The position numbers and the translations under genes were made by a program. From Aeromicrobium sp. Root236 (GTDB lineage Bacteria > Actinomycetota > Actinomycetes > Propionibacteriales > Nocardioidaceae), in assembly GCF_001428805.1 (NCBI RefSeq), contig NZ_LMIS01000001.1, forward strand, positions 3,169,075 to 3,233,074: a DNA stretch of 64,000 nt, written 5' to 3'. Below the pieces are notes generated by a model. It did not search any database, was not told the origin of the DNA, and saw only the letters and a program-made list of their open reading frames with translations. Positions within the stretch are counted from its first letter, which is position 1. Each line of letters starts with the position of its first letter. Positions 15,601-50,996 of the stretch are shown here, piece after piece.

Positions 15601-16173
15601 GTGACGTTCGACGTACTCACCACAGCACTCGATGCCCTGCGAGGTGTCGCCGACGGCGCGACCGATCGGCTCGACCAGCCGACGCCGTGCAGCGACTGGA
15701 CGGTCGGCCAGGTGCTGATGCACGCCGCTGGGGACCAGCACGCCTGGGCGGCGACGGTCGGGACCGCGAGCATGCCTACCTACAACCCGTTCGACCCGCC
15801 GCAGGACGCCGAAGGTGGCGTCGCGCAGGCCGTACGGTCAGCGGCCGACGTGGCCGCCGAGACCTGGGCTGGCGTCGATGCGGGTGCGGACGAGCTGCCC
15901 ACGCCTCTCCCACCTGTGCCGGCTCTCACGCCCGAGCTGGCGGCCGGCGCCGCGGCCCTCGACGCCGCCGTCCATGCGTGGGACGTCGCCGTTGCCACCG
16001 GACAGCCCTCACCCCTGACCAACCCGCTGGCCGCGCAGCTTCGCCCTGCTGCAGAGGCGACCGCCGATTCGTTGCGGGGATTCGCGTACGCGCCGGCGTT
16101 GCCGGAGGTTGATGGGGACGACGAGGCCGCAGCGCTGCTGCGCTACCTGGGGCGCGATCCAGCCTGGTCGTGA
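15601..16173 (+). CDS. TIGR03086-type DinB-like metal-binding protein
   Basis: The GTG start at 15601 is chosen because GAGGGGG lies 7 bp upstream and family similarity begins at once; the frame is open further upstream but there reads against the preceding gene. The 190-residue protein has the actinobacterial TIGR03086/mycothiol-maleylpyruvate isomerase N-terminal pattern: PTPCSDWTVGQVLMHAAGDQHAWA, where the His of VLMHAAGDQH contributes to the metal site of the DinB four-helix fold, and DAAVHAWDVAVATGQP later. These proteins are often mycothiol-dependent or of unknown role. Confidence 0.8.
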   Translation: MTFDVLTTALDALRGVADGATDRLDQPTPCSDWTVGQVLMHAAGDQHAWAATVGTASMPTYNPFDPPQDAEGGVAQAVRSAADVAAETWAGVDAGADELPTPLPPVPALTPELAAGAAALDAAVHAWDVAVATGQPSPLTNPLAAQLRPAAEATADSLRGFAYAPALPEVDGDDEAAALLRYLGRDPAWS

Positions 16174-47118: not shown

Positions 47119-48336
47119 CTAGGAGTCGAGCTTGCGGCCGGCCCACGACCACGCGTAGGCGTCGTCCTCGGCAGCCAGGCCACCCTCGCCGAGCTCGAGA
47201 GGACGGAAGGTGTCGACCATGACCGCGAGCTCGTCGAACGCCTCGACGCCGAGGCTCGCCTCGATGGCACTCGGCTGCGGGCCGTGGGCGTAGCCACCGG
47301 GGTGGAGCGAGATCGAGCCCTTGTCGATGCCCGACCCCTTGCGGGCCTCGTAGTCGCCGTCGACGTAGAACATGACCTCGTCGGAGTCGACGTTGGAGTG
47401 GAAGTAGGGCACCGGGATCGCCAGCGGGTGGTAGTCGACCTTGCGCGGCACGAAGTTGCAGATCACGAAGTTCTGGCCCTCGAAGACCTGGTGCACCGGC
47501 GGCGGCTGGTGCACGCGACCGGTGATGGGCTCGTAGTCGGAGACGTTGAACGTGTAGGGGTAGAGGCAGCCGTCCCAGCCGACGACGTCGAACGGGTGGG
47601 TGTCGTACGTCATCCGGCTGCCGACGATGCCGTTGGCGCCCGAGCCGCGGTGCTTGACCAGGACCCCGACGTCAGTGCCCTCGACGAGCAGTGGCGCCTC
47701 GGGGCCGTGCAGGTCGCGCTCGCAGTAGGGCGCGTGCTCCAGCAGCTGGCCGTAGCGCGACAGGTAGCGCTTGGGCGGTGCCACGTGGCTGTTGGACTCG
47801 ATCGCGTACGCCTTCACCCCGCCCGTCGAGCCTGCCGAAGCGTCCGGGACCCAGCGGTGTGTCGTGGCGCGGGGGATGATGACGTAGTCGCCGGTGCGGA
47901 ACGTGAGCGCGCCGAAGACCGTCTCGACCGTGCCGGAGCCGGCCTCGATGAAGACGCACTCGTCGCCGATCGCGTTGCGGTAGAGCGGCGAGGGCGCGCT
48001 GCCCACGACGTACGCGATGCGGACGTCGCCGTTGCCGAGCACGAGGCGCCGGCCGGTCACCAGGTCAGTGGCCGCAGGGTCGGTGTCGGCGAACAGCGCC
48101 GGCAGCCGCAGGTGGCGGGGCTTGAGCGGGTGGTTGGCGGTCGTGGCGTGGTCAGGGAGGTCCCAGACCTCCGACGCGACGATCCCCGAGGGGACGCCGA
48201 GGTGGTAGAGCAGCGACGAGTCGCTCGAGAACCCCTCCTCGCCCATGAGCTCCTCGCGGTGGAGGGCACCCTCGGGCGTACGGAACTGCGTGTGGCGCTT
48301 GGGCGGGATCTGCCCGACGCTGCGGTAGTGGGCCAC
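47119..48336 (-). CDS. hmgA: Homogentisate 1,2-dioxygenase
   Basis: GTG 48336 has AGGAG 5 bp upstream; the open frame before it would extend into the promoter. The 405-residue protein begins YRSVGQIPPKRHTQFRTPEG and has the HGD metal/active-site elements: YFHSNVDSDEVMFYVDGDYEARKG, ISLHPGGYAHGPQP and GWDGCLYPYTFNVSDYEPITGRVHQPPPVHQVF. It opens the ring of homogentisate to maleylacetoacetate in tyrosine/phenylalanine breakdown. A short non-conserved DASAGSTGG insert in the middle is encoded by a REP-like remnant at 47823-47843. Confidence 0.95.
   Translation of the reverse strand: MAHYRSVGQIPPKRHTQFRTPEGALHREELMGEEGFSSDSSLLYHLGVPSGIVASEVWDLPDHATTANHPLKPRHLRLPALFADTDPAATDLVTGRRLVLGNGDVRIAYVVGSAPSPLYRNAIGDECVFIEAGSGTVETVFGALTFRTGDYVIIPRATTHRWVPDASAGSTGGVKAYAIESNSHVAPPKRYLSRYGQLLEHAPYCERDLHGPEAPLLVEGTDVGVLVKHRGSGANGIVGSRMTYDTHPFDVVGWDGCLYPYTFNVSDYEPITGRVHQPPPVHQVFEGQNFVICNFVPRKVDYHPLAIPVPYFHSNVDSDEVMFYVDGDYEARKGSGIDKGSISLHPGGYAHGPQPSAIEASLGVEAFDELAVMVDTFRPLELGEGGLAAEDDAYAWSWAGRKLDS
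47823..47843. repeat. Degenerate REP-like repeat inside hmgA
   Basis: The sequence CGTCGAGCCTGCCGAAGCGT is similar to the REP core (GTCCTGAGCCTGTCGAAGG) with several changes. It encodes the DASAGSTGG insert. The divergence suggests it is older than the copy at 46584. Confidence 0.5.
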
Positions 48337-48347
48337 GAAGTCTCCTG

Positions 48348-48378
48348 TGTCCGGATAACGGATGAATATGTCCGATAA
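48348..48378. promoter_or_regulatory. Direct repeats in the hmgA divergent promoter region
   Basis: TGTCCGGATAA (48348-48358) and TGTCCGATAA (48369-48378) are repeated 21 bp apart, i.e. two helical turns, in the 68 bp between hmgA and the divergent gene. They are plausible IclR-type sites for the regulator at 50364-50996. Confidence 0.45.
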
Positions 48379-48404
48379 AAACACCATGCGATACCGTGGG
48401 AAGC

Positions 48405-49220
48405 GTGTCAACCCTGCTCGATCGCCTGGTCGACGACGCCGCGATCTTCCCGCCCGGCAACGCGCCGCTCGACGTCGCCGTCCGCGAGCACGCCGGCCAT
48501 CGCTCGAGTGCGTACGCCGCGATGGTCGGGCCGTTGCTGGTGCGCGACGTGGACGTCGCGCACGTTCCGGGACTGGCCCATGAGGCGCTGGAGATCGGGG
48601 TCGTCGCGACCACGGGCCCTCGTGGGCTGGAGCAGTCGGCGGCGACGCTGCACGACTTCCCGCACGTCCACCTGGTCGCGTACGAGATCGCACTCGGCGA
48701 CCTGTCGGCACGGGACCTGGTGAGCGCCCTGCGCGGATCGAACGGTGTCACGGTGTCGGTCGAGCTGCCGCGACCGGGCGCCTATGTGTCCGACGACTGG
48801 CTCGCCGTCGCCGACGAGGTCGCCGCGGCCGGCTTCCAGGTGAAGTTCCGGACGGGTGGCGTCGAGGCGTCCGCCTACCCCGACGAGAAGGAGCTCGCGA
48901 TGGTGCTCGCTGCCCTGGTGCCGCGACGGTTCAAGCTGACCGCCGGACTGCATCGTGCCGTCCGCAACACCCAGGCCGGGACCGGCTTCGAGCAGCACGG
49001 GTTCCTCAACGTCATGGTGGCGGTGCACCGGCTGCTCGCCGGGTCGACCGCTGACGAGGCCGCTGCCGTCCTCGCAAGTCGCGATGGCGGAGTGCTCGCG
49101 GCCGAGGTGGCATCGTGGCGTGATGATGACCGGGTCGCGGTGCGGCGTACGTTCCGCGGCTTCGGTTGCTGCGGCGTGACCGAGCCGTACGAGGATCTCG
49201 TGGGACTGGGGCTGGCATGA
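48405..49220 (+). CDS. Unrecognised protein of the homogentisate cluster
   Basis: The protein of about 271 residues does not match a family I can name. It is rich in aspartate/alanine, without signal peptide or membrane segments, and has a barrel-like alternation of strands and helices: LVAYEIALGDL, VTVSVELPRPG, FQVKFRTGG, RFKLTAGLHRAV. It ends in the distinctive segment FRGFGCCGVTEPYEDLVGLG. GTG 48405 or GTG 48396 are possible starts; neither has a good ribosome binding site. It is divergent from hmgA and overlaps fahA by 4 bp, so it is in the same pathway by context, possibly the maleylacetoacetate isomerase step. No thiol-transferase or GST motif is visible. Confidence 0.7.
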   Translation: MSTLLDRLVDDAAIFPPGNAPLDVAVREHAGHRSSAYAAMVGPLLVRDVDVAHVPGLAHEALEIGVVATTGPRGLEQSAATLHDFPHVHLVAYEIALGDLSARDLVSALRGSNGVTVSVELPRPGAYVSDDWLAVADEVAAAGFQVKFRTGGVEASAYPDEKELAMVLAALVPRRFKLTAGLHRAVRNTQAGTGFEQHGFLNVMVAVHRLLAGSTADEAAAVLASRDGGVLAAEVASWRDDDRVAVRRTFRGFGCCGVTEPYEDLVGLGLA

Positions 49221-50359
49221 CGGGTTTCGGGCTGGACCATCTGCCGTACGGTGTGGCGTCCCACCAGGGTCGTGACCTCGTGGTCGTACGCCTCGGCGAC
49301 GACGTCGTCGATCTTGCTGCGCTGGCTGCCGCGTCGCCTCCGGGCTTCGACGCATCGGTCCTGGCCGGATCGTCGCTTGCTCCGCTGATGGCTGCGGGCC
49401 CTGAGGTGTGGGCGGTCGTACGTTCGTGGCTGCAGGACACCCTCCCTGACGCGCCGGCCAGCCACATTCCGTTGGCCGAGGTCGAGATGCGGATGCCGTT
49501 CGCGGTGGCGGACTACGTGGACTTCTACGCCTCGCTCAACCATGCCTCCAACGTCGGCAAGATCTTCCGCCCCGACGCCGAGCCGTTGCTGCCCAACTGG
49601 CGGCACCTGCCGGTCGGCTACCACGGTCGCGCCGGCACGGTCGTCCCGTCGGGCACCCCGATCGTCCGGCCCAGAGGTCAGCGGCGTCCCGGCCCGGACG
49701 GGCGTCCCGGGTTCGGTCCGTCGCAGGCTCTCGACATCGAGGCCGAGCTGGGCTTCGTCGTCGGCGCCCCGAGCGCGATGGGGCAGCCGGTGCCGACGGG
49801 CGCCTTCGCCGACCACGTCTTCGGTGTCACGCTGCTCAACGACTGGTCGGCCCGCGACATCCAGGCGTGGGAGTACGTCCCTTTGGGACCGTTCCTCGGC
49901 AAGTCGTTCGCCACCTCGATCTCGCCGTGGATCACGCCTCTCGCGGCGCTCGACGATGCACGGGCGCCGCTGCCCGGCCAGGATCCCGAGCCGTTGGACT
50001 ACCTCCAGGTCGCCGAGCCGGCCGGGCTGGCGATCGAACTCGAGGTCGTGGTCAACGACACCGTCGTGTCGCGGCCGCCGTACGCGTCGATGTACTGGTC
50101 GCCCGCCCAGATGCTGGCCCACATGACGGTCAACGGCGCGTCGCTGCGCACCGGCGACCTGTATGGCTCCGGCACGATCTCAGGGGTCGAGCGCGACCAG
50201 CGCGGCTCGCTGCTGGAGCTGTCGTGGGGCGGCAGCGAACCGTTCACCCTCGACGACGGCACCACGCGGACGTACCTCCTAGACGGTGACACCGTCATCC
50301 TCCGCGCCACCGCCGGCTCGATCACTCTGGGCGAGGTCGAAGGCACGATCACCGCCTGA
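49217..50359 (+). CDS. fahA: Fumarylacetoacetase
   Basis: The 380-residue protein carries the fumarylacetoacetate hydrolase domain: YASLNHASNVGKIFRPDAEPLLPNW, the oxyanion/catalytic-histidine region LPVGYHGRAGTVVPSGT, IEAELGFVVG with metal-binding acidic residues, and LLNDWSARDIQAWEYVPLGPFLGKSF. It cleaves fumarylacetoacetate to fumarate and acetoacetate, ending homogentisate breakdown. The N-terminal FAA_hydrolase_N domain is present. Its ATG overlaps the previous gene by 4 bp. Its stop lies 4 bp from the convergent IclR gene. Confidence 0.95.
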   Translation: MTGFGLDHLPYGVASHQGRDLVVVRLGDDVVDLAALAAASPPGFDASVLAGSSLAPLMAAGPEVWAVVRSWLQDTLPDAPASHIPLAEVEMRMPFAVADYVDFYASLNHASNVGKIFRPDAEPLLPNWRHLPVGYHGRAGTVVPSGTPIVRPRGQRRPGPDGRPGFGPSQALDIEAELGFVVGAPSAMGQPVPTGAFADHVFGVTLLNDWSARDIQAWEYVPLGPFLGKSFATSISPWITPLAALDDARAPLPGQDPEPLDYLQVAEPAGLAIELEVVVNDTVVSRPPYASMYWSPAQMLAHMTVNGASLRTGDLYGSGTISGVERDQRGSLLELSWGGSEPFTLDDGTTRTYLLDGDTVILRATAGSITLGEVEGTITA

Positions 50360-50363
50360 GGTC

Positions 50364-50996
50364 CTAGGCCAGTGCGTCGGCGACGGCGTGGGCCGCCGCC
50401 AGCACCAGCGGCTCGACCGTCGCGGCGTCGATGTCGTGAAGGCTGACGATGCCGACCGACGCCTCGAGCCCGGGCACGCCCCGCACCGGGGCAGCGAGGC
50501 CGGCGGCACCGGGCTGGAGCTCGCCGGACGTGCTGGCGACGCCGTCAGCGTCAGCACGGCCCAGCAGGATCGCCTTGCCCGCCGCGCCCGTGTCGAGCCG
50601 GTGACGCGCACCGACCCGATAGGCCACGTGCATGTCGCTGCGGCTCGGCTCGACGACGACGAGCGCCACCGCGTCGTCACCGTCGGCGATCGTCAGGTGC
50701 GCCGTGGCTCCGCTGGCATCGGCGAGCCGCGTCAGCGCCGGCGTCGCGCGCGACTTGAGCTCGGGCAGGTACGCGTTGCGGAACGCCATCATGCCGAACC
50801 CGGCGCCGATGCGGCCCTGGTCGTCGCGGTGCAGGAGGTCGTGCTCCTCGAGCGTCACGATGAGCCGGTACGCCACGGTGCGGCTGATGCCCAGCGACTC
50901 GGCGATCTCGTTGATCGTGAACCGCGAGTCCGACCCGGCGACGAGGGCCAGGATGCGCAGCCCACGGTCGAGCGTCTGCGCGGTCTCGGCGGCCAT
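50364..50996 (-). CDS. IclR family regulator, likely controlling homogentisate genes
   Basis: The 210-residue protein has the IclR helix-turn-helix (RGLRILALVAGSDSRFTINEIAESLGISRTVAYRLIVTLEE) and an effector domain (VGARHRLDTGAAGKAILLGR). It is shorter than typical IclR proteins (about 250), lacking part of the C-terminal domain. It lies directly after fahA on the opposite strand, and homogentisate clusters are commonly IclR-controlled, so regulation of hmgA and fahA is likely. Confidence 0.9.
   Translation of the reverse strand: MAAETAQTLDRGLRILALVAGSDSRFTINEIAESLGISRTVAYRLIVTLEEHDLLHRDDQGRIGAGFGMMAFRNAYLPELKSRATPALTRLADASGATAHLTIADGDDAVALVVVEPSRSDMHVAYRVGARHRLDTGAAGKAILLGRADADGVASTSGELQPGAAGLAAPVRGVPGLEASVGIVSLHDIDAATVEPLVLAAAHAVADALA

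Follow-up and report, generated by a model that had tools for sequence, protein, structure and literature searches.

The homogentisate locus

The window, i.e. the whole 64,000-nucleotide stretch of the Aeromicrobium sp. Root236 genome analysed here, carries a gene of unassigned family (hereafter the ORF) between hmgA and fahA, two genes of homogentisate degradation. The features of the locus are as follows.

47119..48336, minus strand: hmgA, homogentisate 1,2-dioxygenase gene, short divergent type (PF04209 and PF20510 above the gathering score)
48343..48379, no strand: sequence block in the hmgA-ORF gap, conserved in three related loci (aligned with L002 and L003)
48396, plus strand: alternative GTG start of the ORF, yielding 274 amino acids
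48405..49220, plus strand: the ORF, unassigned protein predicted to be a TIM barrel, candidate maleylacetoacetate isomerase (271 amino acids; no Pfam or NCBIfam match)
48843..48845, plus strand: Lys150 codon, KFRTGG motif, predicted strand 6, candidate Schiff-base lysine (translation, alignment, model)
48933..48935, plus strand: Lys180 codon, FKLTAGLH motif, predicted strand 7 (translation, alignment, model)
49170..49172, plus strand: Cys259 codon, GFGCCG segment, just past predicted strand 8 (translation, alignment, model)
49217..50359, plus strand: fahA, fumarylacetoacetase (TIGR01266 passed with 390.9 bits, cut-off 375.3)
50364..50996, minus strand: IclR-family regulator gene, convergent with fahA (Pfam, neighbour comparison)

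Two in-frame GTG codons can start the ORF, at 48396 (274 amino acids) and at 48405 (271 amino acids). The latter looks like the better start because GGGAAG lies immediately 5' of it. Residue numbers (Lys150, Cys259, etc.) refer to the 274-amino-acid form. The ORF reads away from hmgA and ends with a TGA at 49218-49220, which shares a four-nucleotide ATGA overlap with the fahA start codon at 49217. The arrangement described in an earlier note on this DNA, with the ORF lying between divergent hmgA and fahA and translationally coupled to the latter, is thus recovered from the frame 48405-49220, the minus-strand hmgA, the downstream fahA and the stop-start overlap. The ORF is genuine, its frame being conserved across the 80 best loci retained from 275 relatives.

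The hmgA product passes the Pfam models HgmA_N and HgmA_C by a small margin and scores 53 bits against TIGR01015, the NCBIfam hmgA equivalog, far below the cut-off of 511. The hmgA products encoded near the ORF in Priestia and Kovacikia are likewise about 384 amino acids long. In the nearest named loci, L002 and L003, the ORF protein is 83% and 76% identical, respectively, and HmgA 96%. The block at 48343-48379 is probably a shared operator or promoter, and the IclR gene at 50364-50996 is a candidate regulator of the homogentisate cluster.

A protein family linked to fahA

The ORF protein was described in the earlier note as belonging to no recognised family, and it indeed finds no match in Pfam, NCBIfam or the PDB sequences. 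The same search of Pfam and NCBIfam with 27 diverse relatives returns scattered chance-level matches, with at most two members hitting any one family and a best E-value of 0.029, and the family profile has no match among the PDB sequences. The ORF family is unnamed in the libraries used.

Scanning one genome for each species yields 275 relatives; the 80 best loci by similarity were kept. Within the fetched flanks of these 80, fahA is found in 78 and hmgA in 74, with at least one of both in 79; hmgA is missing from the fetched stretch in six. The sole locus with neither gene recognisable in its flank is L033 (5968-6873), and in two of the 78 (L024 and L039) fahA lies beyond hmgA. Because similarity had guided the choice of these loci, a sample of 298 Actinomycetota genomes not so chosen (requested completeness of at least 95%) was taken. 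Here, fahA was called from a long match of at least 263 bits, a threshold of our own, and is present in 50 of the 298. At least 20 genomes carry the ORF, a lower bound because no more than eight candidates per genome were scored, and all of them are among these 50. In all 20 it immediately precedes fahA in the same orientation, with 2-262 nt between the matched regions. The probability of such linkage by chance is 7e-18 if genomes are treated as independent, which they are not. Within the genus of the window, the ORF occurs in 19 of 49 genomes and adjoins fahA in 19 of 19 (coordinates read by eye); fahA is detected in 32 of the 49 at E 1e-50, and none of the 17 genomes lacking it has the ORF. 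The suggestion that the protein is locked into the operon is thus strongly supported by both samples, and conservation beside hmgA or fahA, which had been proposed as a check, is seen in 79 of the best 80 loci.

The family also occurs on plasmids, being found on 24 of 72,556 plasmid records, including six from Priestia (Bacillota) and one from the cyanobacterium Kovacikia minuta. The gene is annotated as a hypothetical protein in 22 of these and has no annotation at that spot in the other two. The order hmgA-ORF-fahA is present on plasmids of Tsukamurella, R. aetherivorans, Streptomyces NBC_01213, R. rhodochrous, Pseudonocardia and Nonomuraea, and ORF-fahA on that of Streptomyces NBC_00525, where hmgA is not in the stretch. 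The one Priestia region opened reads hppD-ORF-fahA-hisC-hmgA. In Kovacikia, fahA and the ORF overlap; hmgA and hppD lie close by, on the opposite strand. A role as 4-hydroxyphenylpyruvate tautomerase or as a helper of HppD was also considered and is discarded, because six of the nine ORF-bearing plasmid stretches compared show no hppD match and the linkage is to fahA.

Predicted fold and conserved residues

A structure model built with 61 sequences has a mean pLDDT of 96.3 and a pTM of 0.93, and its eight strands alternate with helices. The ORF protein is thus predicted to be a TIM barrel, nearest to deoxyribose-phosphate aldolase (DERA). The best Foldseek match is a DERA with an E-value of 3.2e-3 and a probability of 1.00, none reaching 1e-3 or lower. 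VIA-align superposes 187 residues on DERA with a Z of 14.8 (3.2 A, 17% identity); its rows 1-35 are all DERA, variants designed from DERA or another aldolase (Z 13.6-14.8), and homocitrate synthases follow at Z 12.7-13.6. Other barrel families are not named in the VIA-align list, and nothing follows from their absence there. Direct homology to DERA was considered and set aside: despite the good fold match, comparing 84 rows of the family with 17 of DERA type in hhalign gives a probability of 0.35% in an unrelated register, with a DERA set that is shallow (Neff 2.7) and leaves room for remote homology.

Residues invariant in the 61 rows gather at the predicted barrel mouth. These are D13 on strand 1, E97 on strand 4, E123 on strand 5, K150 and R152 on strand 6, K180 and T182 on strand 7, and C259 past strand 8, to which H186, R190, H201 and N205 are added in and after the loop following strand 7. 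K150 falls on predicted strand 6 (148-152), a placement taken from the model alone, and 82 of the 84 rows retain it; H186 and C259 are each retained equally often. All three are lost jointly in the same two homologues (L106 and L108), which suggests that they work together. The C-terminal segment, singled out in the earlier note as distinctive, holds up to the extent that C259 is invariant in the 61 aligned rows; it is absent from these two more distant ones. L106 (1486-2409) and L108 (1336-2259) lie beside fahA without Lys150, His186 and Cys259, and are perhaps inactive or altered in function.

The Schiff base of class I aldolases forms on a strand-6 lysine, and the lysines of DERA sit on strands 6 and 7. 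The ORF protein resembles DERA (PF01791) and class I aldolases in its predicted TIM-barrel fold, for which they are the best solved matches, and in having lysines predicted on both of these strands. It differs in that it has no Pfam DeoC match and profile comparison lends no support; the FGASS of DERA would correspond to the FGxC of the ORF family, in an alignment made by eye only.

Search for known isomerase families

The classical maleylacetoacetate isomerase, MaiA, belongs to the GST zeta type (TIGR01262). On plasmids, fahA is found in 119 records, and nine proteobacterial ones among the matches listed were opened. maiA lies within the stretch in five of the nine and not in the other four. 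The model for the GST-type enzyme scores over its cut-off in five of the nine records, which serve as a positive control. A Pontibrevibacter plasmid has the order hmgA-maiA-fahA, so that maiA fills exactly the slot held by the ORF in Rhodococcus. None of the nine proteobacterial records is among the ORF matches.

No gene of the window genome matches the GST-type maiA model, which extends to the whole genome the remark in the earlier note that no GST-type isomerase is seen. Over the cut-off, the model finds nothing in the 298 phylum genomes (50 have weaker GST matches), in 32 ORF-bearing genomes from the set of 80 (weak matches in the one behind L012) or in eight ORF plasmid records (weak matches in Kovacikia, the best at 87 bits). 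MaiA and the ORF protein share the operon slot beside fahA and, presumably, the reaction. They differ in family, as neither the ORF protein nor its 27 relatives match TIGR01262, and in fold, the ORF protein being predicted to form a barrel rather than the thioredoxin-like plus helical architecture of GSTs. The model, which provides the structure prediction that had been proposed as a check, supports a fold different from that of GST.

Another known solution comes from the gentisate pathway, where a mycothiol-dependent isomerase gene is reported beside the dioxygenase and hydrolase genes of Rhodococcus (PMC3937715, PMC6498646). In keeping with the role proposed for the ORF protein, this family (MDMPI; PF11716/TIGR03083) offers Actinomycetota a glutathione-free solution of an analogous step (PMC3937715, PMC6498646). 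It differs from the ORF protein in sequence, none of the ORF protein and its 27 relatives matching the MDMPI_N or TIGR03083 family. The window genome has 12 MDMPI_N paralogues, and seven of the eight scanned pass the TIGR03083 cut-off. Six of the 12 were compared with solved structures (phmmer, E 0.01) and match none, a weak result since the library may lack the Corynebacterium enzyme. One MDMPI_N-family protein (L087) is encoded in the window itself, at about 15625-15990 on the plus strand, far from the homogentisate genes.

Genomes with fahA and no ORF

The ORF is not found in 30 of the 50 fahA-bearing phylum genomes nor in 13 of the 32 fahA-bearing genomes of the window genus. In all 12 of these 13 that were inspected, hppD, hmgA and fahA follow one another, the ORF does not lie between them and no isomerase is recognised. 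The surroundings of fahA were read in 20 of the 30 genomes of the phylum, and hmgA is nearby in nine. A diverged copy of the ORF hidden near fahA was looked for in the same 20 phylum and 12 genus genomes and is rejected, as hmmsearch gives none even at E 10. The genus thus shows two types of fahA operon, one with hmgA divergent from ORF-fahA and one with hppD-hmgA-fahA and no ORF (L214-L224, L170).

No replacement isomerase could be seen beside fahA either: 15 neighbours, a minority of all and delimited with our own gene-boundary heuristic, include neither a GST nor an MDMPI according to Pfam. They comprise an hppD-type protein, a biopterin-dependent hydroxylase, an acetyltransferase, an alpha/beta hydrolase, an acyl-CoA dehydrogenase fragment, SpoIIE, a transposase, a metallo-beta-lactamase fold, TetR and a methyltransferase-type domain, and two have no match. 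This tally leaves out the hppD-type protein and AsnC-type regulator of L214, both confirmed by Pfam, the hppD of L223 and two Kovacikia proteins.

On a tree built from 126 FahA rows, the presence of the ORF changes six times, against 34 in shuffled labels, and therefore follows FahA lineages. ORF-bearing and ORF-less members of the window genus fall in different clades, and the FahA of Priestia and Kovacikia group with proteobacterial FahA. It is a quick tree with long branches, so its details are unsure. As the 12 ORF-less genus genomes all keep hppD-hmgA-fahA, the homogentisate pathway seems able to run without the ORF. Taken with the ORF-less fahA genomes, the two operon types and the FahA clades, more than one route through the isomerase step therefore exists in the phylum. 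Candidates for routes without the ORF are MDMPI paralogues, direct action of FahA and free thiols.

Proposed role and alternatives

The best reading of this context is that the ORF protein is probably a maleylacetoacetate isomerase, whatever its chemistry. The more specific statement, that it works in the homogentisate branch as an enzyme, most likely as this isomerase, and comes from an undescribed class I aldolase-like TIM-barrel family, appears about evenly balanced. The earlier note had proposed that the protein could supply the isomerase step by a different fold or act as an accessory. The non-GST fold is supported by the model, while the isomerase role is still argued from context, given the many fahA-bearing relatives without the ORF and the 12 MDMPI paralogues.

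A mechanism in which the enzyme uses its own lysine and cysteine instead of glutathione is offered tentatively. The conserved Arg and His at the barrel mouth would hold the substrate dianion, and the C4 ketone would be converted to an iminium by Lys150 on strand 6. Cys259, past strand 8, would add reversibly to the double bond so activated, which could then rotate from cis to trans before the thiol departs. The product, fumarylacetoacetate, would feed FahA. Cys259 would thus stand in for glutathione, and therefore no low-molecular-weight thiol would be needed. The two homologues that sit beside fahA without the proposed catalytic residues count against this picture, as does the profile comparison with DERA. 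Actinomycetota use mycothiol, Priestia bacillithiol and the cyanobacterium glutathione, and the occurrence of the family in users of all three therefore favours independence from a particular thiol. That the family is old, spans at least three phyla and carries out thiol-cofactor-free cis-trans isomerisation of maleylacetoacetate with an iminium lysine and a built-in cysteine in a class I aldolase-like barrel is a slightly more doubtful proposal. To our knowledge, no natural isomerase is known to use this chemistry.

The same isomerase role could be filled by other chemistry, with mycothiol, bacillithiol, another small thiol or a bound metal as the working group and Lys150, Lys180 and Cys259 binding substrate or cofactor. 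Homocitrate synthases are metal-dependent. They also match the fold (Z 12.7-13.6), and the conserved D13, E97, E123, H186 and H201 could hold a metal. The known actinobacterial maleylpyruvate isomerase is reported to use mycothiol (PMC3937715). Yet a single cofactor for the whole family is improbable, because Actinomycetota, Priestia and the cyanobacterium use different thiols, and all but two of the 84 rows conserve C259; such other chemistry appears improbable. Somewhat less unlikely is an enzyme of the same branch other than the isomerase, e.g. a keto-enol tautomerase, or an aldolase or hydratase clearing a dead-end product of maleyl- or fumarylacetoacetate. It would accord with the aldolase fold, with the many fahA-bearing relatives that do without the ORF (including all 12 hppD-hmgA-fahA operons examined in the genus) and with a linkage that is strict to fahA, hmgA being missing from the stretch in six of 80 loci. 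However, maiA occupies the slot of the ORF in the Pontibrevibacter plasmid. Proteobacteria, too, often have no maiA in the stretch around fahA (four of nine), so that missing linkage in ORF-less genomes says little.

The isomerase could finally be an MDMPI paralogue encoded elsewhere in the genome, using mycothiol, with the ORF protein as a non-catalytic accessory of FahA. The 12 MDMPI_N matches, seven of eight scanned being over the TIGR03083 cut-off, are in line with this, as are the two homologues that lack the conserved residues and still lie beside fahA. On the other hand, 82 of 84 homologues keep barrel-mouth residues that a scaffold would not need, and none of the six paralogues compared matches a solved structure, which counts weakly; this explanation is judged very improbable. 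The preferred reading is still a maleylacetoacetate isomerase encoded by the ORF.

Significance for homogentisate degradation

Published Rhodococcus work touches the same gene cluster. Rhodococcus ruber Chol-4 is reported to grow on homogentisate and not on L-tyrosine (PMC6498646). Its cluster is called hmgABC in the text, and the figure legend names hmgR, hmgA and hmgB, and no isomerase (PMC6498646). Another R. ruber strain carries hmgA-ORF-fahA (L031). In R. globerulus, HmgA and HmgB are reported to be produced on phenylalanine and on 2-hydroxyphenylacetate (PMC11889516), and strain NBRC 14531 of this species also has hmgA-ORF-fahA (L060). In the portions of the open-licence literature that the analysis covered, neither a glutathione-independent maleylacetoacetate isomerase nor the ORF family is described.

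No GST-type isomerase passes the cut-off in the 298 phylum genomes, yet R. ruber is reported to grow on homogentisate (PMC6498646). The ORF family is a candidate to fill this isomerase gap in part of the phylum genomes. It provides a testable claim on how glutathione-free bacteria perform the isomerase step and, if the lysine-cysteine mechanism is true, it would represent natural iminium catalysis of double-bond isomerisation.
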